Assembly: GCA_902619615.1 (NCBI GenBank)
Contig: CACNFD010000018.1
Coordinates: 1 to 34,306 of the forward strand
Origin: an uncultured SAR116 cluster alpha proteobacterium
Lineage (GTDB): Bacteria > Pseudomonadota > Alphaproteobacteria > Puniceispirillales > Marisalimonadaceae
Reading direction: 5' to 3'
Length of the DNA stretch: 34,306 nucleotides
In this document: positions 8,116 to 34,306 of the stretch, in pieces
Layout of the letters: every line of letters begins with the position of its first letter
Position numbering within the stretch: position 1 is the first letter of the stretch
The notes under the pieces: model-generated
Told to the model about the DNA's origin: nothing
The model's input: only the letters and a program-made list of their open reading frames with translations
The model's database searches: none
Position numbers and translations under genes: made by a program

Positions 8116-8877
8116 ATGAATGAACTTAATCCATATATAATTTTATCAAAACCACAACTTGGTGAAAATATTGGTTCTACTGCTCGTGCTATGAAAAATT
8201 TTGGTATAAAAAAACTTTTACTAGTTCAGCCTAGAGATGGATGGCCTAATAATATTGCTTTTCCTTCCGCAGCGGGTGCAGACGATGTTTTAAATCAAGC
8301 AAAGTTGTATGATTCAATAAGTGACGCTACTAAAACAATTTCTTTGTTATTTGCAACAACTGCACGAAAACGTGTTATTGGGACAAAATCCTTAAGCATC
8401 TTCAGAGCAATAGAGAAATCATTTGAACATGTTGTTGATGGTGGTAACGTTGGATTTTTATTTGGACCTGAGCAATCGGGGTTATCAAATGATGATGTTG
8501 TCCAAGCAGATTACACAGTTTCAATTCCAATTAATAGAGAATTTTCATCATTAAATATATCTCAAGCAGTATTATTGATTTGTTGGGAATGGAACAAAAT
8601 AAAAATGTCATTTTTGAATGATGATAAGAATTTGGTTAAAATTAATAAAAAATTAAAAAAAAGTACCGAACTCTCTAATGTTGGTGACAGAGAATATTTT
8701 TATAAACATTTAGACGAGCTTTTAACTAAATCAGGTTTTTTTTATTCATCTGAAATGGCTCCTGTTGTAAAAAGAAATATCAGAAGTTTATTTAATAGAG
8801 CTTCACTAACTCACCAAGATTTAAGAACACTTCATGGTATTATTAGATCATTATCAGGTACTTCAAATCGTACTTGA
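8116..8877 (+). CDS. trmJ: tRNA (cytidine/uridine-2'-O-)-methyltransferase, TrmJ-like SPOUT enzyme
   Basis: SpoU/TrmH-class RNA 2'-O-methyltransferase with a trefoil-knot SAM site. PQLGENIGSTARAMKNFG near the N-terminus, LFGPEQSGLSNDDV (from about residue 115) and SLNISQAVLLICWEW are the three SPOUT motifs. The C-terminal extension (RTLHGIIRSL) matches the TrmJ subgroup, which methylates position 32 of several tRNAs. I chose ATG 8116 because the conserved protein starts there (MNELNPYIILSKPQLG). A TTG at 8086 inside the cysS end would add ten residues unlike the family. The stop codon TGA (8875-8877) lies inside a TTGACA hexamer that is part of the promoter region for rpsD. Confidence 0.87.
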   Translation: MNELNPYIILSKPQLGENIGSTARAMKNFGIKKLLLVQPRDGWPNNIAFPSAAGADDVLNQAKLYDSISDATKTISLLFATTARKRVIGTKSLSIFRAIEKSFEHVVDGGNVGFLFGPEQSGLSNDDVVQADYTVSIPINREFSSLNISQAVLLICWEWNKIKMSFLNDDKNLVKINKKLKKSTELSNVGDREYFYKHLDELLTKSGFFYSSEMAPVVKRNIRSLFNRASLTHQDLRTLHGIIRSLSGTSNRT

Positions 8878-8901
8878 CATTTTATATAATGATAGTATTT
8901 T
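8862..8901 (+). promoter_or_regulatory. Overlapping promoter candidates for rpsD
   Basis: Two sigma70-like pairs overlap here. TTCAAA (8862-8867) is 17 bp from a perfect TATAAT (8885-8890). A perfect TTGACA (8874-8879) is 16 bp from TATTTT (8896-8901). Starts would fall near 8897 and 8908, giving an rpsD leader of roughly 100-115 nt. The elements overlap the end of trmJ. Confidence 0.5.
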
Positions 8902-8906
8902 TCAAT

Positions 8907-9004
8907 TCCATTTCCGATAAAGTGGATAGTAGCGTGGTGTTATATATCCCGAAGCCAAGCTTCTGGTTGGAATAATTTATTACTTCTAAGTAGTTACATA
9001 AAGG
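8907..9004 (+). promoter_or_regulatory. Structured 5' leader of rpsD, possible S4 autoregulatory region
   Basis: The leader can form a 7-bp hairpin from TCCATTT (8907-8913) with AAGTGGA (8920-8926, one G-U pair). It can also form a perfect 5-bp hairpin GAAGC/GCTTC (8951-8955 with 8959-8963, loop CAA). CCAA (8955-8958) can instead pair with TTGG (8967-8970), which would exclude the second hairpin. The ribosome binding site AAGG is at 9001-9004. S4 represses its own operon in other bacteria by binding mRNA. Whether this leader does the same is inference; I do not recognise it as a named motif. Confidence 0.4.
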
Positions 9005-9011
9005 TTTAAAA

Positions 9012-9638
9012 ATGCCTAAATCAGATCACAAAAGAACAAGTTCAAAACATAAAATTGATAGAAGATTAGGAGTTAATTTATGGGGACGACCAAAATCTCC
9101 CTTAAATGATAGAGAATATGCACCAGGTCAGCATGGTCAAAGAAGGAAAAAACCTACAGATTATGGTGTTCAATTAATGGCTAAACAAAAATTAAAAGGC
9201 TATTACGGTAACATTGGTGAAAAACAATTCAAAAAATACTATACAGCTGCAGTTCGTAAAAAAGGTGACACCGGAGCAAATTTGATTGGTATTTTGGAAT
9301 CTAGATTAGATGCTATCCTTTACAGAATGAAGCTAGCACCAACTGTATTTGCCTGTCGTCAATTGATTAATCATGGTCATGTTATGGTAAATGGAAGTAG
9401 ATGTAATATACCTTCTAGAATGATCAATGTAGGGGAGGTTATTTCTTTGAAGGACAAAGCAAAGAACATTCCAGCTGTAATTGAAGCAACAACTCTACCT
9501 GAAAGAGATGTACCTGAATATGTCGAAGTTGATCACTCTAAGTTTACTGGATCTTTATTAAGGATCCCAATGCCAGATGATGTTCCTTATCCAGTACAAA
9601 TGGAAACTAACTTAGTAATTGAGTTTTATTCACGTTAA
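9012..9638 (+). CDS. rpsD: 30S ribosomal protein S4
   Basis: Primary 16S rRNA-binding protein that starts assembly of the 30S body. The 208-residue protein has the alphaproteobacterial pattern [29 protein letters not shown] and [11 protein letters not shown]. The S4 RNA-binding domain follows at about residues 98-160 ([25 protein letters not shown]), and the protein ends in VIEFYSR. It is transcribed alone: its own promoter lies upstream, and the convergent grxD end is 43 nt downstream. Unlike in Escherichia coli, no rpsM, rpsK or rpoA accompany it, which is the usual alphaproteobacterial arrangement. The N-terminus lacks the Cys zinc-ligand pattern. Confidence 0.97.
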
Positions 9639-9681
9639 TAAATTAGTTAAAAGAAAAATTTCAAAAATTATAATTAGTTTA

Positions 9682-10008
9682 TTAGGTAGAAATGCCTGCT
9701 TCATTAAAATACTGAGTTAACTCTCCATTTTCGTGCATTTCTCTAATAATATCACAGCCACCAACAAATTCTTTTTTTACATATAATTGTGGTATTGTTG
9801 GCCAATCTGAAAACTCTTTTATACCCTCTCTTATTTCAGGGTCTTCAAGAACGTTTACACTATTGTACTTAATTCCCATATGGCTTAAAACTCCAACAAC
9901 TGCAGCAGAAAAACCACATTGTGGCATAACTGGAGTACCTTTCATAAATAGCAAAACATCGTTTTCATCGATTATATTCTGAATTTTATCTTTAGTACTT
10001 TGTTCCAT
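9682..10008 (-). CDS. grxD: Monothiol glutaredoxin, CGFS type
   Basis: Binds and hands on [2Fe-2S] clusters with glutathione and is the partner of BolA-family proteins. The CGFS active site is at residues 31-34 ([11 protein letters not shown]). The [18 protein letters not shown] glutathione-binding segment follows, and the length of 108 residues is normal. The ATG is preceded by GAGGAGA at ideal spacing. The gene starts 11 nt after the end of bolA, so the two partner proteins are made from one message, which also follows the purine genes. It is the last gene of this minus-strand run and converges on rpsD. Confidence 0.95.
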
Positions 10009-10019
10009 TTAATTCTCCT

Positions 10020-10256
10020 CTATTCACTTGGGGCTGATGTATTTAAAGCTAATGCATGTAGTTCTTTTCCCATTTTGCCACCCATTGCATTGTAGACCAT
10101 TTGATGTTGTTGCACACGAGATTTTCCTCTAAATTCTTCAGCAATGATTTGTGCTGCATAATGATCTCCATCACCACGTAAATCATCAATAATAACTTTT
10201 GCATTTGGAAAAGCTTTAATAATTAGTTCTTCTATCTCTGAAGCTGTCATAGCCAT
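10020..10256 (-). CDS. BolA family protein, IbaG/YrbA-like
   Basis: Small alpha/beta protein (78 residues) that forms [2Fe-2S]-bridged heterodimers with monothiol glutaredoxins and helps iron-sulfur delivery. The family pattern is clear: GDGDHYAAQIIAEEF (His32), then SRVQQHQMVYNAMGG (His51), and a C-terminal ELHALAL strand. The lack of the BolA cysteine and the GDG-H loop place it with the IbaG/YrbA subgroup rather than BolA proper. The start could equally be the second Met (residue 3). It lies between purL (9 nt) and grxD (11 nt); fusion of a glutaredoxin/BolA pair to the end of a purine operon is common in alphaproteobacteria. Confidence 0.9.
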   Translation of the reverse strand: MAMTASEIEELIIKAFPNAKVIIDDLRGDGDHYAAQIIAEEFRGKSRVQQHQMVYNAMGGKMGKELHALALNTSAPSE

Positions 10257-10265
10257 TTTACAAAC

Positions 10266-12569
10266 TTAACCTTGTTGTTGCTCACCCATCATTGATGGGA
10301 TGGTTTTTTCATTTAAGTTTTTAATATCTTTTATAAATATAGTAGTAATATCTTTTAAATTCAAGTTACTGCTTGAATTAGTTTGTCCAAGAACAAAGAA
10401 GTCAATATTATTTTCTTTTAATATTAGTTGTACTTTTTTGATATGTTTTGTTGCAATAATTATTCTTGCTTGATCTTCTCCAAAACACCATGATTGAAGT
10501 AAGGGGTCATAACTATCACAATTAATTAGGTTGCTAGGTAAATTAATATCTAATCCTAAATTATATTTAAATAACATTTCACAAACTGTTGTCAGCAAGC
10601 CACCGTCTGAAATATCATGGGCAGCTGTCAGAAGTTTTTGTTCATTCAATTTTAATAAAATTTCAATAACTTTTTTTTCATTTTCTAAATTTATTGGTGG
10701 AGGTGCTCCGTCATATTTTTTATTAATAATTTCTTGATAGATACTACAACCAACCCAACCAGCTTTAAAATTTTCAGATTGTCCAAGGGCAATCAAGACA
10801 TTATCTGGTTCTGCACTTATCTTTAGAGAATTTTCAACCTCATCTATTGCTCCAACCATACCAATGACTGGAGTAGGAAGAATACTCTTACCATTAGTTT
10901 CATTATAAAGAGAAACATTTCCTGATACAATTGGAGTACTTAAATAAGAAGCAGCTTCTGAAATTCCTTTTATAGATCCTACAATTTCTCCCATAACATT
11001 TTTTTTATCAGGATTTCCAAAATTTAAGTTGTTTGTTATCGCAAGTGGTTTTGCCCCTGACGAAGCTATATTTCGTGCAGCTTCACAAACTGCTTGCATA
11101 CCTCCAATTATAGGATCTGACTTAACATAACGTGGTGTGCAATCAGTTGTAATCGCAAGACCTTTTCCGAAAGATCCTTTTTTTTCTGTTCCATGAACTT
11201 TTACTAATGAAGCATCACTATCACCATTTGCAAAAATTGTATCTCCCATTACTGAGCTATCATATTGTTCCCAAATCCATTTCTTACTGGCTATATTTGG
11301 ATTTTTAAAAATTATTTTTAATATATCAATTATTGTAAGATTGGTTTTGAGATCTGACGGTTTTAATACTTTTTTAATAGCTTTTATTTCAAAAGGTTTA
11401 TTATATTCAGGAGCATCTTCGACAAGAGGTTCAAGAGGTAAGTTGCACGCTTCAAAGCCGTGTTTAGTAAGAATTAGTCTTCCTGTATTAGTAACTTCTC
11501 CTATATTAGCAAAATCTAGATCCCATTTATCAAATATTGATTTTGCTTTTTCCTCTGATCCTGGTTTTAAAATCATTAACATTCTCTCTTGACTTTCTGA
11601 GAGCATGATTTCATAGCTAGTCATCTTATCTTCTCTAGTAGGCACTAAATCTAAATTTAAACTCATACCTAATGATCCCTTAGAAGCCATCTCTACACTA
11701 GAGCTTGTTAAACCAGCTGCTCCCATATCTTGAATAGATAAGACAGCATCTGTGTTCATTAATTCTAAACAGGCCTCTAATAGTAATTTTCCTGTAAATG
11801 GATCTCCAACTTGAACAGTTGGTCTTTTTTCAGTACTGTTTTCTGTAAATTCAGCAGAAGCCATTGTCGCTCCATGTATTCCATCTCTTCCTGTTTTTGC
11901 ACCTACATATATAACTGGGTTACCGGCGCCTGTTGCTGCTGAATAGAATATTCTATCTTTTTTTGCAAGACCAACAGCCATTGCATTCACTAGAATATTA
12001 CCATCATAAGATTTATCAAAGTTTGTTTCACCACCAACTGTTGGAATTCCTATACAATTACCATATCCACCAATTCCTTTAACCACACCCGAAACAAGGT
12101 GTTTTGTTAAAGGTTGATCTGGAGAACCGAATCTCAATGCATTCATAAGAGCTATAGGTCTAGCACCCATTGTGAAGACATCTCTCAAAATTCCGCCAAC
12201 ACCAGTTGCTGATCCTTGGTAAGGTTCTATAAATGAAGGGTGGTTGTGAGACTCTATTTTAAAAACAGCAGCTAAATTTTCTCCTATATCAATTACACCA
12301 GCATTTTCTCCAGGTCCTTGAATCACATGACTAGCCTCTGTTGGTAAAGTTTTTAACCATTTTTTTGAGCTTTTATAAGAGCAATGTTCTGAAAACATAG
12401 CAGAAAAAATCCCTAATTCTGTTATATTGGGAATTTTATCAATTTTTTCACAAATTAAATTATATTCATTTTTCGTTAAACCCATTTCTAAAGCATCTTC
12501 AAGTTTACTTTTCTGTTGAGCTAAATACTCATTTTTATTAATTTTTAAGAGTTCTGATTGTGGTTCCAT
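10266..12569 (-). CDS. purL: Phosphoribosylformylglycinamidine synthase subunit PurL
   Basis: The synthetase subunit of the three-protein FGAM synthase (PurLQS), fourth step of purine synthesis. It turns FGAR into FGAM with ATP and ammonia supplied by PurQ. The 767-residue length is that of the small PurL, not the 1,300-residue fused gamma-proteobacterial type. The N-terminus has [16 protein letters not shown] and [19 protein letters not shown]-site motifs include [34 protein letters not shown] and the second AIRS repeat with DCTPRY and ISDGGLLTT. It begins 6 nt after purQ, with only a weak ribosome binding site, so translation is probably coupled. Confidence 0.97.
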
Positions 12570-12575
12570 TATTAT

Positions 12576-13268
12576 TTAACCAATTATTTGTTCAACACAA
12601 TTTGTAAGAAATTTTAAACCATCTGTTCCACCCTGTAGATTGTTTATGGCTCTTTCAGGGTGTGGCATCATTCCTAAAACTTTTCCATTGTTTGATAGAA
12701 TGCCAGCTATGTCTTCTGTTGATCCGTTGGGATTATAATTTTTTTCATTATCATTTTGTTTAATATATTTTAAAGCAATTCTTCCTTCTTCTTTCAGTTG
12801 TTTTAATAAATCTTCAGGAGCAAAATAATTACCTTCATTATGAGCAACTGGAATCTTTAAACATTCACCTATTTTTAAACCAGAGAGAAAAGGGTTTTCA
12901 ATACAACTTTGGACTTCTAATGTTGTCTCTCTGCAAGTAAATAAGAGTTTCTTATTTCTTATAAGAGATCCAGGGAGTATTTTAGCTTCAATTAATATTT
13001 GAAACCCATTACATACACCTAACACTGCGCCACCACGACTTATATGGTTTTTAATTGAAGTTATTACTGGAGATCTGGCAGCTAAGGCGCCACATCTCAG
13101 GTAATCTCCAAAGGTAAATCCACCTGGGATAACAATTAAATCTAAATTAGGAATGTCATATTCTTTATGCCAAATTTTGATTGGGGTTTTCCCTGTGATT
13201 TTCCTGATTGCAACAATCATGTCTCTATCACAATTAGAACCTGGAAATATTACAACACCTGAACGCAA
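12576..13268 (-). CDS. purQ: Phosphoribosylformylglycinamidine synthase subunit PurQ
   Basis: Class I glutamine amidotransferase that supplies ammonia to PurL. The oxyanion loop region is VIPGGFTFGDYLRCGA, the nucleophile is Cys86 in GVCNGFQ, and the His203/Glu205 pair lies in GMMPHPERA. The length of 230 residues is typical. The start is TTG at 13268: the protein begins MRSGVVIFPGSN, exactly where the family begins, and no ATG is available there. AAAGGA (13280-13285 on the plus strand as TCCTTT) lies inside the last codons of purS, about 11 nt away, which suggests coupling to purS translation. Confidence 0.96.
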   Translation of the reverse strand: MRSGVVIFPGSNCDRDMIVAIRKITGKTPIKIWHKEYDIPNLDLIVIPGGFTFGDYLRCGALAARSPVITSIKNHISRGGAVLGVCNGFQILIEAKILPGSLIRNKKLLFTCRETTLEVQSCIENPFLSGLKIGECLKIPVAHNEGNYFAPEDLLKQLKEEGRIALKYIKQNDNEKNYNPNGSTEDIAGILSNNGKVLGMMPHPERAINNLQGGTDGLKFLTNCVEQIIG

Positions 13269-13275
13269 AATTTTT

Positions 13276-13521
13276 TTAATCCTTTAAAATATTGATTTCA
13301 TAATTTTCAATAACGGTGTTTACTAACAACTCTTCGCACATCTTCTTAGCTTGTTTCAGAACTTCAGTTTCACTATTTTGATCCAAATTCAAAATAATTT
13401 GTTTGCCAGTCCTTACATCACTACAATGTTCAAAACCCAAGTTATTTAAAGAAGACTTTATAGCTTGTCCTTCTGGATCTAAAACACCTTCCTTAAGAGA
13501 TACATTTACAATAACTTTCAT
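13276..13521 (-). CDS. purS: Phosphoribosylformylglycinamidine synthase subunit PurS
   Basis: The small (81-residue) structural subunit that bridges PurL and PurQ in the FGAM synthase complex. The family pattern is visible: MKVIVNVSLKEGVLDPEGQAIKSSL, a GF-V--VR-GK core (here FEHCSDVRTGKQI) and a C-terminal LLVNTVIENYEI strand. It lies between purC (11 nt) and purQ (7 nt), the standard order in bacteria with the three-part enzyme. AGAGAG precedes the ATG. Confidence 0.96.
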   Translation of the reverse strand: MKVIVNVSLKEGVLDPEGQAIKSSLNNLGFEHCSDVRTGKQIILNLDQNSETEVLKQAKKMCEELLVNTVIENYEINILKD

Positions 13522-13532
13522 AATAACTCTCT

Positions 13533-14300
13533 TTATTTTACTATTTCAGGTTTAGCGATAGAGTATATTTTTTTCTCAGGAATAATACCTAATCTATTTG
13601 CAACTTCTTGATATGCCTCTTTTAACCCACCTAATTCTTGCCTAAACAAATCTTTATCCATTTTCTTATTAGTTTTAATGTCCCATAATCTGCAGTTGTC
13701 TGGGCTTATTTCGTCAGCTAATAGCAAAATTGAATTGCCATCTTCAGAATAATATCTTCCAAACTCAATTTTAAAATCTACAAGTTTAAGACCTATTCCA
13801 AAAAACAGACCTCTTAAAAAATCATTAATCCTAAGACCGTATTCTTGCATCTCCTCTAATTCATCTCTAGTGCCCCACTGAAAGTTAAGTATATGATCTT
13901 CGTTTATTAGTGGATCACCCAACTCATCTTTTTTTAAATAATGTTCAATTAGGGGTCTTGAAAAAACACTACCTTCTTTTAAACCAAGTCTTTTTACAAT
14001 TGAGCCAGCTGCAATGTTTCTAACAACAAATTCTACAGGTATTATTTCAACTTTTCTTACAAGTTGTTCTCTCATATTTAATTTCTTAATATAGTGCGTT
14101 GGTATGCCAATCTCGTTTATTTTTTTCATTAAGTAGTCAGAAATAGAATTATTTAAAACTCCTTTACCATTAATTATAGAATGTTTTTCAGCATTATTTG
14201 CAGTGGCATCATCTTTGAAATATTGTATAACTGTATCTGAAGTGGGGCCTTCAAAGATGGTTTTAGCTTTCCCATCATATAAAATTTTCTTTTTAGACAT
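13533..14300 (-). CDS. purC: Phosphoribosylaminoimidazole-succinocarboxamide synthase
   Basis: SAICAR synthetase, which joins CAIR with aspartate using ATP in purine synthesis. Typical blocks are LYDGKAKTIFEG at the N-terminus, FKDDATANN, MREQLVRKVEIIPVEFVVRNIAAGS, LVDFKIEFG and LADEISPDNCRLWD. The 255-residue length matches the single-domain bacterial enzyme. GAGGAT directly after the purB stop codon serves as its ribosome binding site, with 15 nt between the genes. Its product is the substrate of the upstream-encoded PurB. Confidence 0.97.
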   Translation of the reverse strand: MSKKKILYDGKAKTIFEGPTSDTVIQYFKDDATANNAEKHSIINGKGVLNNSISDYLMKKINEIGIPTHYIKKLNMREQLVRKVEIIPVEFVVRNIAAGSIVKRLGLKEGSVFSRPLIEHYLKKDELGDPLINEDHILNFQWGTRDELEEMQEYGLRINDFLRGLFFGIGLKLVDFKIEFGRYYSEDGNSILLLADEISPDNCRLWDIKTNKKMDKDLFRQELGGLKEAYQEVANRLGIIPEKKIYSIAKPEIVK

Positions 14301-31045: not shown

Positions 31046-31486
31046 CAAAAAATTCCTACTAATCGAAGTGATTATAATGTTTTTTCCAAAATGAACACAA
31101 GGTGGAATGATAATGATATTTATGGTCACTTAAATAATGTAATCTATTATGAGTTATTTGATACTGCAGTTAACAAATGGTTAATAAAAAACAATTTAAT
31201 TGATATTAAAAATGGGAATAATATTGGCCTTATAGTTCAATCAGGATGTAATTACTTCTCTTCGTTTGAATATCCAGAAGATATCGACGCAGGAATAAGA
31301 GTAACAAAAATTGGAAATAGTTCCGTTAGATATGAGGTGGGTTTATTTAAACCTAATGATGATTTAGCATCTGCAGATGGATTTTTCATTCACGTTTATG
31401 TTGATAGAGTTAGCAATAAACCAATAACTTTAGATTATGAATTTAAAAAAAAATTAGATACAATTTACGTTGATCTAAATAATTAA
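31043..31486 (+). CDS. Acyl-CoA thioesterase, 4HBT/YbgC-like hot-dog fold
   Basis: A 147-residue protein of the 4-hydroxybenzoyl-CoA thioesterase superfamily. The signature TRWNDNDIYGHLNNVIYYELFDTAVNKWL carries the catalytic Asp and the GH-NN helix. VQSGCNYFSSFEYPEDIDAGIRVTKIGNSSVRYE forms the central strands. It likely hydrolyses a short or aromatic acyl-CoA; the substrate is unknown. The start is TTG with a good ribosome binding site in the preceding aminotransferase gene, so the two are coupled. Its TAA overlaps the stop of the convergent cyclophilin-like gene at TTAA (31483-31486). Confidence 0.88.
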   Translation: MQKIPTNRSDYNVFSKMNTRWNDNDIYGHLNNVIYYELFDTAVNKWLIKNNLIDIKNGNNIGLIVQSGCNYFSSFEYPEDIDAGIRVTKIGNSSVRYEVGLFKPNDDLASADGFFIHVYVDRVSNKPITLDYEFKKKLDTIYVDLNN

Positions 31487-31854
31487 AGTTTTTCTATTTT
31501 TACAATCTCGTTTTCTTTAATTTTTTCAATATAACTTTTTTCGAAATTACTGTCTGCCCAAATATTACAAGGTGAAATTAATCTAATTTCATTTTCCTTT
31601 GAAACTGGAGTTTTACCATAACCAATAGCAATAGCTGACCCTTCATTCCAAAATGCTATTTCTCCAAAATCAACTACTGCCTTAGCATTATCCTCTAATT
31701 CAACATCAACAGGGGTCTCAAAATAAATCTCTTCACCCCATTTTTTCACTGTTGAATTAAAAGGTAATGCTTCATAAATCATATCTGCTGTTGGTGTGTC
31801 TCGTAGGTTTAAAACTAAGTTTTTATCTTTAAATTTAAGAACAATTTTTTTCAT
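31483..31854 (-). CDS. Cyclophilin-like fold protein
   Basis: A 123-residue protein of the small cyclophilin-like family (TM1367/DUF369-type beta barrels). It has TPTADMIYEALPFNSTVKKWGEEIYFETPV, then VDFGEIAFWNEGSAIAIGYGKTP and a C-terminal PCNIWADS. Proteins of this fold are found widely in archaea and bacteria; no peptidyl-prolyl isomerase activity can be claimed. I chose ATG 31854, where the conserved MKKIVLKFKDK begins. A longer frame back to 31902 adds 16 residues (MCYNCNILAIKKSKLF) that look like promoter-region sequence, containing TTATAAT on the minus strand. It is next to tRNA-Val and is the last core gene before the integrase. Confidence 0.8.
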   Translation of the reverse strand: MKKIVLKFKDKNLVLNLRDTPTADMIYEALPFNSTVKKWGEEIYFETPVDVELEDNAKAVVDFGEIAFWNEGSAIAIGYGKTPVSKENEIRLISPCNIWADSNFEKSYIEKIKENEIVKIEKL

Positions 31855-31920
31855 AAATAATTTACTTTTTTTAATTGCTAATATATTACAATTATAACAC
31901 AATTTTATTAATTATAAAAT

Positions 31921-31995
31921 GGGACTATAGCTCAGCGGGAGAGCACTTCGTTGACATCGAAGGGGTCACTGGTTCAATCCCAGTTAGTCCCACCA
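31921..31995 (+). tRNA. tRNA-Val (anticodon GAC)
   Basis: The acceptor stem GGGACTA pairs with TAGTCCC, the D arm is GCTCAGCGGGAGAGC, the anticodon stem CTTCG/CGAAG encloses TTGACAT (anticodon GAC), and the T loop is TTCAATC. CCA is encoded, giving 75 nt. It reads GUC and GUU. Its 3' end directly precedes an integrase gene, a classic attachment-site arrangement. Confidence 0.96.
31961..31995 (+). other. Putative attachment site (attL) at the tRNA-Val 3' end
   Basis: Tyrosine recombinases encoded beside a tRNA usually integrate into its 3' half, leaving the tRNA intact and a direct repeat of its 3' end at the far boundary. The integrase gene starts 78 nt after this tRNA. No second copy of GTTCAATCCCAGTTAGTCC is present before 34306, so the other end lies outside the window. 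The exact core is not known. Confidence 0.5.
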
Positions 31996-32042
31996 TAAAT
32001 TTCAAGGACTTAGCAGTAATTAATCATATATAAACTTAATGA

Positions 32043-32065
32043 CTGTCACTCATGTGTCACAGTGA
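32043..32065 (+). repeat. TGTCAC direct repeats and inverted repeat before the integrase
   Basis: TGTCAC occurs twice, 11 bp apart, just upstream of the integrase ribosome binding site (TGTCACTCATG then TGTCACAGTGA). Within it, TCACT (32046-32050) is inversely repeated as AGTGA (32061-32065). One helical turn between copies suits protein binding, such as integrase arm sites, an excision factor or a repressor; this is inference. Confidence 0.4.
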
Positions 32066-32076
32066 GGTTATATATG
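32064..32076 (+). promoter_or_regulatory. Ribosome binding site deciding the integrase start
   Basis: GAGG at 32064-32067 lies 6 nt before ATG 32074. The upstream GTG at 32062 overlaps this site, so ATG is the likely start. Confidence 0.55.
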
Positions 32077-33018
32077 GCTACCATAAGAAAACGTAATAAC
32101 AAATACCAGGTTCAGGTACGTATCAAAGGTCAATCCACCAGTGCAACTCTTATCTCTTTAGATAGTGCAAGGAGGTGGGCTAGACAAAAAGAACTAGAGT
32201 TGGAAAAGAAAATAAAGCTTGGGGAACTATATAGACCTAAGAATTTTAAAGAGATAATTCTTGAGTATAAACAGAAGGTTACACCTCTTAAAAAATCATC
32301 CCATAATGAGAATATCATTATTGAATCATTAGCACGTAACCCATGGATGCTAATACCACTTGATAAATTACAACCCATTGATATTACCAACTACAGAGAT
32401 GAAAGATTGGCTAATATAAAGCCATCAAGTTTTGCAAGAGAGTTTGGTATATTAAGACATGCCTTAAAGATTGCTAAGGTTGAATGGGGCTGGGAAGTGC
32501 CAATAGACCTATTTAGACACATTAAAATACCTAAGCTTTATCAACGGGTTATAAGAAGAATACAAGACAAAGATTTAGAATTAATTCTTCGATATACTAA
32601 AGACCATAATAACATTTATCTTTATCCTATTATTGTTCTTGCTTTGGAATCAGCTATGAGACGAAGTGAAATATTATCTTTAAAATGGGCTGATATTGAT
32701 TTTAAAAGACGATTAATAACAGTTGAAAATACCAAGAATGGATACCCACGTATAATACCTATGACAGATAAATCACATAATATTTTAAAAAATCTTAAGG
32801 TAATAAATGAATATGTTTTTCCACTTACCACAAACAGTTTGAGGTTAATGTATCAAAGATTATGTAAAAAATTATCTCTTAAAATAAGGTTCCATGATTT
32901 AAGACATGAAGCTATTAGTAGATTGTTTGAGGAAGGAAATACCATACCTGAAATAGCAGCAGTAAGTGGTCATAGAACCATAAGTCAGTTGTTTAGATAT
33001 GCTCATCCAAAATCTTGA
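32074..33018 (+). CDS. int: Site-specific tyrosine recombinase (phage/island integrase)
   Basis: A complete 314-residue integrase. The N-terminus (MATIRKRNNKYQVQVRIKGQ) is the short arm-binding domain seen in tRNA-directed phage and island integrases. A SAM-like core-binding domain occupies about residues 55-150. The catalytic domain has all six residues: Arg196 in AMRRSEIL, Lys221 in NTKNGYPR, His274 and Arg277 in HDLRHEA, His300 in SGHRT, and the nucleophile Tyr309 in LFRYAHPK. No frameshift or missing residue is seen, so it may be active. It lies in the same direction as, and 78 nt from, tRNA-Val(GAC), and marks the left end of an integrated element. No excisionase gene is visible. Confidence 0.95.
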   Translation: MATIRKRNNKYQVQVRIKGQSTSATLISLDSARRWARQKELELEKKIKLGELYRPKNFKEIILEYKQKVTPLKKSSHNENIIIESLARNPWMLIPLDKLQPIDITNYRDERLANIKPSSFAREFGILRHALKIAKVEWGWEVPIDLFRHIKIPKLYQRVIRRIQDKDLELILRYTKDHNNIYLYPIIVLALESAMRRSEILSLKWADIDFKRRLITVENTKNGYPRIIPMTDKSHNILKNLKVINEYVFPLTTNSLRLMYQRLCKKLSLKIRFHDLRHEAISRLFEEGNTIPEIAAVSGHRTISQLFRYAHPKS

Positions 33019-33069
33019 AGGCGCTCTATATAGTTTAATTAAGATTAATAAGAAGAGATATTAGTTATA

Positions 33070-33116
33070 ATTAGTATATATAATAATATATAATATATAT
33101 ATATATATATAATAAC
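33070..33116. repeat. TA-rich tract including a pure (AT)9 run
   Basis: Almost every base from 33074 to 33113 is an alternating T/A step, with an uninterrupted 18-nt AT run at 33093-33110. It sits in the 149-bp gap after the integrase and can melt or extrude easily. The region otherwise holds no gene. Confidence 0.7.
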
Positions 33117-33167
33117 TACATCATTAAAATATAAAAATACAAAGATAAGAATATTATAGTCAACGCT

Positions 33168-33581
33168 ATGAAAGATTTAAATTCTTCTGACAAAAATACT
33201 ATTTTTTCGTTTATAACAAATGACACAGATTTTTTACCTTTGTTTAGGGAGATAAAAAGTAAAAATGAACTTTATTGGTTGCGTGGTTCAGCAAAACCCT
33301 CAAATCAACTTAAAAGTTTAGTAATTCAAGAAAATCAAATAGAACTTTCTGAATTCTTTGAAAAATATCATTTTTTTAGTATGGCAAATAGTTTTTGGAA
33401 TAATCAATTCATAAAAGTTGTTGTTAATAATTTTGACTTTGAGCAAGCATCAGAGATTTATTATCATAAACTCTTAGTCGAGGAATATGAAGTTCACCGA
33501 GAAAAAGAACTAGATGAATTATGGAAGATAACTATGGCTGAGATTGATGAAACAATTAAACCTAAAGACGAAAATGATTAA
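33168..33581 (+). CDS. Protein resembling the C-terminal part of a NYN/PIN-like nuclease domain, probably truncated
   Basis: A 137-residue protein. Residues 14-58, with SFITNDTDFLPLFREIKSK, then LRGSAKPSNQLKS and IELSEFFEKY, follow the end of the NYN (LabA/DUF88) domain pattern (SGDSDFIPLIRELR, then S-eLk, then F-dls). The Asp19/Asp21 pair would be one half of the acidic metal site. The N-terminal half of the domain, with the first catalytic aspartate, is missing. The frame is closed by TAA only 12 codons upstream, in the AT-rich gap, so the gene looks truncated or has diverged. The C-terminal 60 residues are charged and helical. No good ribosome binding site precedes the ATG. It is cargo of the tRNA-Val element; the assignment is tentative. 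Confidence 0.5.
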   Translation: MKDLNSSDKNTIFSFITNDTDFLPLFREIKSKNELYWLRGSAKPSNQLKSLVIQENQIELSEFFEKYHFFSMANSFWNNQFIKVVVNNFDFEQASEIYYHKLLVEEYEVHREKELDELWKITMAEIDETIKPKDEND

Positions 33582-33778
33582 AAACTTATTTAAAAGAATT
33601 TTGTTGCTAATCTTTCATATGTAGACCATAGCTATAAATATCTTGCCATATCTTCATGTCCAGTGCCAAGGTATAAGCAAAGAATGAAAAAACATTATGA
33701 GTGGCTCACAAACCCCTGAACTACAAGGTGATAAAGACAGAGTACTTGTACAGTTTAACTAGGGATATTAAAATGATA

Positions 33779-34240
33779 TTATCTGGCGTTTATCATTCTT
33801 TTAAGCCTTGATTTATATTTATTTATATATTGGTTAATCATATTAATGTTCTTTTTAATTAAATTTGATTTTTCAAGAACTTTCAAACCTAAAATTCTAT
33901 AACAACGAATGACCTCTTCATACACTTCTGCAGTCCATTCAGGTTGCATGTAAATTTTGTCCACATTTGAAGCAATAATATTTTCTGCTATAACAATATC
34001 TTCTTCAGAGCGTTGTTTGGACAGACCTTCACCATAAAATGCTTTTATTCCAAGCTCAAAAGCGGCATTAAAATTTTCTTCATTTTGAAGGTCTCTTAAT
34101 TCTGTTGCACCTTCTCCCATTACAACACCTGCACAAGCTGATACATTATCAAATTCATTTGAGTATGATTGTTTGATAAATATAAAAAATATAATGGGAA
34201 TTACGAATATAATACTAGGTTTGAAAAAATATATTAACAT
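33779..34240 (-). CDS. Small exported protein of unknown function
   Basis: A 153-residue protein with an N-terminal signal peptide: hydrophobic residues 8-23 (PSIIFVIPIIFFIFI), then KQSYSNEF, with likely cleavage after the serine at about 27. The mature part starts with VSACAGVVMGEGATE, then a predicted all-helical stretch including ELGIKAFYGEGLS, VIAENIIASNVDKIY and EEVIRCYRILGLK. Two cysteines (in SACAGV and IRCYRI) could form a disulfide. The end is lysine-rich and helical. I do not know a characterised family. It is transcribed toward the NYN-like fragment, with 197 bp between their 3' ends, and is likely part of the integrated element. Confidence 0.65.
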   Translation of the reverse strand: MLIYFFKPSIIFVIPIIFFIFIKQSYSNEFDNVSACAGVVMGEGATELRDLQNEENFNAAFELGIKAFYGEGLSKQRSEEDIVIAENIIASNVDKIYMQPEWTAEVYEEVIRCYRILGLKVLEKSNLIKKNINMINQYINKYKSRLKRMINAR

Positions 34241-34306
34241 ATATTTATCTTATGAAAATTTTGTATTGAGTAAAGTTTTTATAATGTCATTTACATTAAT
34301 TTAATA

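Follow-up and report, generated by a model that had tools for sequence, protein, structure and literature searches.

Williams is reported to have described, in 2002 (cited in PMC6563490), classical prophages and islands at tRNA genes in which the element supplies the 3′ part of the gene. The element considered here begins near the end of a window of 34,306 nt (the whole stretch of DNA analysed, on contig C18 of an uncultured SAR116 alphaproteobacterium). It is like the classical 3′-restoring elements in having a tyrosine integrase beside an intact tRNA gene, a supplied 3′ part and, at its other end, the 3′ fragment that was displaced, and it shows no difference in principle from them, with a long core of 69 nt. 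The islands of this genus resemble integrons in that their small genes are flanked by ~120-bp dyad repeats of one orientation and are shuffled between arrays. For Actinomarinales (PMC7771536) and Methylophilaceae (PMC10872708), gene cassettes at tRNA genes are described as additive flexible genomic islands, and in the available passages of these papers, as here, marine or freshwater plankton have small gene sets added at their tRNA genes together with repeated tRNA ends. In the islands studied here, the joints bear a ~120-bp repeat of non-tRNA origin, of which those passages make no mention. Tycheposons, as defined in the available part of PMC10872708, are elements of marine bacteria with a tRNA border, a tyrosine recombinase and metabolic cargo; our locus likewise has a tRNA border and a tyrosine recombinase with cargo.

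The window contains an intact tRNA-Val(GAC) gene (31921–31995, plus strand; tRNA call, 67.7 bits against Rfam tRNA), which the element would have restored and which we designate attL. It is the only host tRNA-Val(GAC) gene assembled. A complete tyrosine integrase of 314 aa adjoins it on the same strand, running from an ATG at 32074 to a stop codon that ends at 33018, with a gap of 78 nt between the two. The integrase, taken from the open reading frame (ORF) list, matched PF00589 at 97.2 bits (cut-off 27.1), it also matched a phage integrase family of PHROGs (phrog_1), and alignment with XerA filled all six catalytic positions (R196, K221, H274, R277, H300 and Y309, numbered from the ATG at 32074), which bears out the complete recombinase reported by the first-pass annotation. 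Within the gap, TGTCAC occurs twice in direct orientation at a distance of 11 bp (32044–32049 and 32055–32060, plus strand); the two copies are candidate integrase arm sites with counterparts before the core on a second contig, C39. The same annotation saw core-metabolism genes give way to other content at the tRNA gene, and this agrees with aminotransferase, thioesterase-like and cyclophilin-like genes on the left (Pfam) and two small ORFs on the right. The cyclophilin-like gene (31486–31857, minus strand; PF04126, 112.3 bits) is the last host gene on the left and is conserved beside the tRNA gene in relatives. The G+C content of 1-kb stretches was 0.25–0.33 to the left and right alike and showed no clear step.

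The displaced end of the tRNA gene was found in the same genome. The core repeat, tRNA bases 8–75 plus one T (31928–31996, plus strand), is identical over 69 nt to C39:5309–5377 (attR). Element sequence precedes this copy and host flank follows it, and the flank corresponds to the DNA directly 3′ of the intact tRNA gene in G010 and G034, two SAR116 relatives without the window's element. Because the tRNA gene has an exact partial copy placed between element sequence and host flank, chance is excluded as an explanation of the integration. ARAGORN called no tRNA in the C39 copy; Rfam scored it as a tRNA (41.5 bits, gathering score 29) even though its 5′ acceptor strand is mismatched, which counts against the reading. 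The left and right host flanks are contiguous across an uninterrupted tRNA-Val site in both relatives (85.5% and 95.2% identity in G010, 92.8% and 86.0% in G034), and G010 has a short tRNA fragment of 28 nt 3.3 kb further on. The two checks proposed in the first-pass annotation, a search for a direct repeat of the tRNA 3′ part and for an empty site in relatives, therefore both gave the expected result, the repeat being on a separate contig since the window stops where its own contig ends. The reading of positions 31,921–34,306 as the left boundary of an element in tRNA-Val(GAC) stands. Judged from sequence, the end of the window is very probably one edge of an integrative genomic island whose integrase would have recombined attP, carrying tRNA-Val bases 8–75, with the host tRNA-Val(GAC) gene.

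Right of the integrase, ~40 nt (33117–33156, minus strand) match the 3′ end of a small HTH-membrane gene located after the integrase in G003 and in G020, and homology to these two genomes ends here. The next ORF encodes an orphan of 137 aa (33168–33581, plus strand) that was matched in its own genome alone among 40 genomes of the genus. It had been called nuclease-like, a label we rejected as unsupported, with no Pfam match over the cut-off and no PDB match at E ≤ 10. Beyond it, the repeat search placed island repeat C at 33700–33764 (plus strand); this repeat occurs in eight genomes among the loci examined, often directly 5′ of a longer repeat (repeat A, below), and stands here without it. 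The last ORF, an island gene of 153 aa (33779–34240, minus strand), has relatives in 11 of the 40 genomes, its own included. By eye its N terminus resembles a signal peptide, and the protein is probably exported, as had been suggested. No mention of DUF6974 was found in the literature searched.

Across the genus, island cargo consists of small genes separated by a dyad repeat of ~120 bp (repeat A), and the same genes recur with different neighbours. The count was 77 copies over 33 loci, including one copy that entered twice since L166 overlaps L145; L166 was left out of the flank, strand, breakpoint and repeat C counts, leaving 76 copies. All repeat statistics come from loci chosen for repeat A, an integrase or tRNA-Val, and their pairs and breakpoints are non-independent; in one set of 20 loci, several were picked for a nearby repeat A. 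G036 and G038, both incomplete, had no repeat A, and in IMG/VR no contig contained one exact 24-base pattern, which is too strict to exclude the repeat.

We see an even chance that repeat A is no recombination site in its own right but a stretch of shared homology, or a protein-binding site, where island genes become joined by ordinary homologous recombination. Breakpoints were dense throughout intergenic DNA (16.7 per kb) and only some two times denser in repeat A (36.1 per kb), and 16 of the 33 loci had neither of two searched integrase classes on the stretch examined, many contigs being short. Pairing of the arms barely exceeded that of shuffled copies (0.636 vs 0.626 ± 0.005; 300 shuffles, highest 0.642), with slid partners at 0.10–0.37; the dyad is present in the consensus and not clearly kept by covariation. 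The integron integrase IntI (TIGR02249) was over the cut-off in none of the 40 genus genomes, which are incomplete, and likewise in none of 14 control genomes, so the controls included no positive. However, of 44 pairs of neighbouring copies, 35 had the same orientation, independent of gene strand (47 plus and 27 minus). Exchange of one flank only was also far commoner than shared flank pairs (92 and 120 vs 21; sufficient flank was available for 2,556 of 2,850 pairs, and within-genome pairs were kept).

A more tentative reading is that SAR116 islands contain a cassette system that resembles integrons without kinship to IntI or attC, in which repeat A, mostly kept in one orientation, is the recombination site where some recombinase adds, removes and reorders single small genes. 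Same-orientation arrays of small genes between repeats are exchanged among genomes, as in integrons; unlike integrons, the islands have no IntI over the cut-off and genes on both strands. Since no integron integrase passed the cut-off and the repeat had only about double the breakpoint density of other intergenic DNA, such a system is possible and unproven. The repeat C copy and the 153-aa gene in the window might, equally tentatively, be one piece of the repeat system and one of its genes. Three narrower roles for repeat A were rejected. As an attC site, it had no attC core by eye, no Rfam match over the gathering score in six sources and weak covariation. As the partner of one integrase class, it lay near both the window type and another class of ~360–415 aa, besides the loci with neither. 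As a free operator, its arm motif had 88 matches inside and five outside the repeat in 987 kb.

Relatives of the element occupy the same tRNA gene in two arrangements. In a tree of 30 rows the integrases at tRNA-Val formed one clade with two subclades, although the tree program warned that this clade joins others by long branches; the truncated L182 and partial or later-found integrases of G029, G032, G012 and L091 were left out. Elements of the window type (mode 1) carry the tRNA 3′ part, and the gene is restored beside the integrase. Two were whole, ~6.4 kb in G003 and ~6.3 kb in G020, with integrases 93% and 98% identical to the window's, respectively; the far tRNA copy in G020 is only 85% identical to the tRNA. 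Mode-2 elements, found in G035, G002, G021 and G009, carry the tRNA 5′ part and their own upstream sequence, so that a broken copy lies beside the integrase and an intact tRNA gene is restored at the far end, 11–15 kb away. In two of the genomes, decay has affected the former tRNA copy next to the host genes. Putative TGTCAC arm repeats occur at both ends in both modes, as pairs against a background of 0.24 per kb; five of six mode-2 left ends had a single exact TGTCAC and no pair. One 470-aa mode-2 protein looks polymerase-like by eye from its motifs, with no PDB match at E ≤ 10; its predicted structure had a mean pLDDT of 42 and was dropped. The first-pass annotation considered such islands uncommon in streamlined marine alphaproteobacteria. 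Here they are not uncommon: the genome has three integrases of the window kind, and among the matches listed ARAGORN called a tRNA close by, within the same short stretch, for 14 of 22 window-type integrases examined in the genus.

Because C18 and C39 are unjoined in the assembly, two or more elements might sit in tandem, in which case the integrase in the window would stem from one insertion and the right end on C39 from another. G039 has tandem remnants (a mode-2 end, an intact tRNA, a mode-1 remnant and a second mode-1 left end), and contig C9 of G009 has three successive 3′ tRNA fragments. We nevertheless consider a tandem unlikely here, as only one 3′ fragment of this tRNA and only one integrase of the window's subclade were found in the genome itself and the G003 and G020 elements, at 6.3–6.4 kb, are single. 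Still less likely is a prophage or phage satellite with structural or packaging genes in the missing middle: the integrase matches phage integrase families, with relatives in phage records at up to ~33% identity, but no capsid, terminase or portal match was found in the ORFs of the window (Pfam, PHROGs) or C39 (Pfam, NCBIfam) or in nine ORFs of the G003 and G020 elements (Pfam), and no IMG/VR contig matched integrase peptide patterns, which reach close relatives only. Of the earlier wording "prophage or genomic island", we therefore keep island, since we saw no phage structural, packaging or satellite gene in the parts examined. That contamination or faulty assembly produced the copy on C39 is scarcely credible: the assembly comprises 59 contigs and does not show the join, but reported contamination is 0.02, the C39 flank is 94–95% identical to the DNA after tRNA-Val in G010, and in four more genomes (G003, G020, G011 and G039) a 3′ piece of the tRNA likewise follows this right end of the element.

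For the integrated island, we propose that crossover occurs inside tRNA bases 11–53, most likely around the anticodon loop, with the TGTCAC pairs at both ends serving as putative integrase arm sites. Integration would leave the intact tRNA beside the integrase, which may be transcribed from the tRNA promoter staying at attL, and would displace the host's 3′ part to the far end on C39. Mode-2 kin keep the 5′ part and rebuild the gene at their far end under their own upstream sequence. As the two modes keep opposite parts of the tRNA, the half kept by attP would decide how the gene is restored. The cargo varies: islands exchange small genes, most of them metabolic or of unknown kind, and many of the joints have repeats A, B and C. 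We saw no transfer genes in the parts examined, so spread probably needs a phage, another element or DNA uptake, although this is a weak suggestion.

Elements that recombine in the 5′ region of tRNA genes are known and rare (PMC6563490, citing Zhao and Williams 2002 among others), and mode 2 resembles them in supplying the tRNA 5′ part; the difference is that here 5′- and 3′-restoring elements with related integrases share one tRNA gene. Related integrases, alike in their arm repeats and sharing a crossover zone, restore this gene from opposite halves, which suggests that the polarity of restoration can flip without the site moving. We know of no report of related integrases that are opposite in this respect at one tRNA gene. 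In mode-2 genomes, the intact tRNA-Val(GAC) gene now depends on element DNA. Repeat A offers a testable handle on the trade of single genes in abundant, mostly uncultured ocean bacteria.

The window comprises contig C18 in full (34,306 bases), one of 59 contigs in a 2.16-Mb genome with a reported completeness of 99%, and carries tRNA-Val(GAC) at 31921-31995 (anticodon at base 33), followed after 78 nt by a 314-aa integrase (32074-33018). Integrase residues R196, K221, H274, R277, H300 and Y309 match the corresponding positions when aligned to XerA, bearing out the first-pass annotation, which had noted the tRNA with a complete integrase beside it. The nuclease-like label that it gave to the 137-aa ORF at 33168-33581 found no support: this ORF is an orphan, and nothing pointed to a nuclease. 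No other full-length tRNA-Val(GAC) copy was found in the same genome. The feature at 31921-34306 is genuine and was rightly interpreted: an island of a known kind, inserted at tRNA-Val(GAC), has its left end here.

Searching the genome with this region located the far end of the element. Bases 8-75 of the tRNA recur on contig C39 (5309-5376; exact run of 69 nt), and this is the second copy of the tRNA 3' end that had been proposed as a check. ARAGORN called no tRNA at this copy, whose seven initial bases mismatch the acceptor strand and which scored 41.5 bits as a tRNA in Rfam, versus 67.7 for the intact tRNA (gathering threshold 29). The sequence GAAATTCTCCGGAGG directly precedes the copy and is common, with small differences, to the right ends of elements in four congeners (G003, G020, G011 and G039). 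Past the copy, a 600-nt stretch of C39 shares 95.2% identity with the DNA that follows the intact tRNA in the relative G010, where the window's left flank (85.5%) adjoins the same tRNA; the relative G034 shows the same arrangement (86.0% after the tRNA and 92.8% for the left flank). Comparison with relatives, also suggested earlier, thus yielded two genomes with both flanks at the tRNA and without this element. We note that G010 carries a 28-nt tRNA fragment 3.3 kb beyond the tRNA site.

The recovered portions of the element measure 2.3 kb on C18 and 5.3 kb on C39, contigs that are unjoined in the assembly; the comparable whole elements of G003 and G020 span about 6.4 and 6.3 kb, respectively. 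Contig C46 of the same genome, parts of which are 88-93% identical to the G020 and G003 elements, may be a further, unproven piece. Homology of the window to G003 and G020 ends at 33156. In those two elements a small gene lies next after the integrase, encoding a protein whose HTH matches phrog_323, and the homology breaks off within its 3' end; the window's own cargo therefore begins at that joint. The probably exported ORF of the window has relatives in 11 of the 40 genus genomes, its own counted. C39 encodes a pair of DUF6974 proteins, a protein of 380 aa assigned to no family and a TPR protein whose glycosyltransferase-9 match is below cut-off. Genes in the G003 and G020 elements include DUF6974 relatives, DUF1330, a 2OG-Fe(II) oxygenase and a cupin, as well as cupin-like and SnoaL-like genes with matches below cut-off. 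DUF6974, for which a literature search found no paper, has seven matches in the window's genome: besides the two on C39, one lies in each of two further islands, on C4 (from 132683) behind the integrase at tRNA-Arg(ACG) and on C5 (from 116050) behind tRNA-Arg(TCG).

Across the genus, tRNA-Val(GAC) is a hotspot with two polarities. A full-length match was present in 23 of 40 genomes, most of them incomplete assemblies. Mode 1, the window type, has the integrase adjoining the intact tRNA, with a 3' piece of the tRNA at the opposite end of the element. All or part of the integrase gene was found in the window's genome, G003, G020, G029 (where the contig end cuts it) and G032 (where it is truncated); in G011 and G039 just the element ends were seen. 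The far end is in the data for the window's genome, G003, G020 (a copy with 85% identity to the tRNA), G011 and G039. Mode 2 has the integrase adjoining a partial copy of bases 1-64 only (1-53 in G021), with the intact tRNA 11.3-15.0 kb away and the element DNA in front of it. Complete mode-2 elements occur in G035, G002, G021 and G009, left ends on G039:C86, G012:C133 and L091 (a contig of HS5SWF_bin.12), decayed elements with a degraded 5' copy in G001 and G028, and right ends alone in G036 and on G039:C98. A 92% copy of bases 1-65 in G019 was assigned to neither mode.

The four complete mode-2 elements share a conserved gene block (L063 oriented 8545-13839, and L060-L062), with 381-, 170-, 147- and 470-aa proteins in all four, a 177-aa protein in three and a 325-aa protein in two. 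None of these proteins matched Pfam above cut-off or PADLOC at E<=0.01, and only the 470-aa protein had a strong PHROGs match (phrog_4756, unknown function). Two adjacent proteins with cysteine motifs in the G035 element (L060 oriented 9242-11856) are radical-SAM-like by eye. In a third kind of insertion at tRNA-Val, just the final 23-28 nt of the tRNA are left. Three short 3' fragments stand in succession at oriented 1455, 6624 and 7769 of L079 (G009:C9), and point to several insertions made by a different type of integrase.

The complete integrases at tRNA-Val form a single clade (support 100/100) that contains a mode-1 group (100/96, three rows) and a mode-2 group (99/94, five rows). The tree program warned that long branches attach this clade to the others, and the root is for drawing only; the sister relation of the two groups therefore depends on distant outgroups. 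Integrase identities, 57-62% between modes and 34-38% to the C36 and C4 integrases of the same genome, agree with that relation. The window integrase matched 11 of 136 order genomes at E<=1e-80, nine of them in this genus; its peptide patterns had no match in IMG/VR, and its 477 matches among phage records were all below 60% identity (about 33% for the best among the matches listed). Related integrases sit at tRNA-Arg(ACG), tRNA-Arg(TCG) and tRNA-Pro(TGG), and next to part of a tRNA in reverse orientation whose anticodon, read by eye, is CAT. This reversed 3' piece precedes the integrase at G000:C36 4627-5583 (G000 being the window's genome) and on G002:C3, G023:C12 and G017:C37, so that restoration of the tRNA used by this integrase would take place at the far end.

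Element ends carry TGTCAC repeats 11 bp apart, a motif with a background frequency of 0.24 per kb. In mode 1, all five left ends have them at +48 and +59 past the tRNA. Four of five right ends have them ahead of the core (the tRNA segment duplicated at element ends), at -125 and -114, and the remaining one has a single copy. Mode-2 left ends have a single exact copy at +58 in five of six cases and a pair in the other, and all eight right ends have the pair. Bases 11-53 of the tRNA, centred on the anticodon loop, are common to all these elements. Given this shared stretch, the TGTCAC repeats and the related integrases, the same reaction seems to yield either restoration, and we infer that the half kept in attP would set which half of the tRNA is supplied on completion, the 3' half in mode 1 and the 5' half in mode 2. 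Recombination at tRNA 5' regions is considerably less frequent and has precedents, as one paper has it (PMC6563490).

Between the cargo genes of C39 and C46, and also in G003 and G020, a repeat of about 120 bp with 23-nt inverted arms (repeat A) recurs. At E<=0.001 it was detected in 30 of 40 genus genomes and, with a different copy as query, in 37 of 58 family genomes. With the cut-off set to E<=1e-10, 35 of the 136 genomes of the order had a match, representing two of 20 genera, both within this family. A search of the window found no repeat A. The island loci examined held 77 copies (one double-counted) in 33 loci; neighbouring pairs had the same orientation in 35 of 44 cases, and none of 76 copies overlapped an ORF of at least 70 aa by more than 60 nt. 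Stretches shorter than 3.2 kb between same-way copies (n=31) had a median of 1,366 bp, and the ORFs in them ran in both directions (47 plus, 27 minus). In 49 of 65 cases the gene left of the repeat faced it. Directly 5' of repeat A lie two alternative sequences, repeats B and C (19 and 12 of 76 copies; neither in 45), which are both found alone too; the window has one repeat C, at 33700-33764. tRNA genes, for Leu(GAG), Arg(TCG), Gly(GCC) and Gly(TCC), occurred on 13 of 29 scanned loci. Integrases of another class, some 360-415 aa long, lay near repeat A in nine loci (L147-L154, L166) out of a set of 20, several of which had been picked for that; in most cases the repeat had the opposite orientation and the neighbouring tRNA was tRNA-Arg(TCG) or tRNA-Gly.

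The same DNA flanking repeat A was found beside different neighbours in other copies. Pairs of copies had only the left flank in common in 92 cases, only the right in 120 and both in 21 (217 mixed; 2,106 without a common flank). Homology endpoints fell in or near repeat A in 401 of 2,334 cases, versus 71 ± 16 with shifted repeats. Per kb, we counted 36.1 endpoints in repeat A, 16.7 in other intergenic DNA and 3.5 in ORFs; shuffling is therefore generally intergenic, with repeat A a roughly twofold hot spot. The tests applied indicate that this is not an integron: no integron integrase scored above cut-off in any of the 40 genomes (nor, however, in any control genome), Rfam gave no matches other than tRNAs, the arms showed barely any covariation, and no attC core was apparent by eye. 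The repeats may still act in an integron-like way, which we consider rather unlikely, or may just be shared homology. Among the papers listed in our literature searches on SAR116 genomic islands, gene cassettes and island repeats (12 of 62 in one of them), which covered a minority of subscription journals, none evidently described such a system, to judge by the listings. The repeat-marked shuffling of island genes is unusual, as is the restoration of one tRNA from opposite halves by related integrases.
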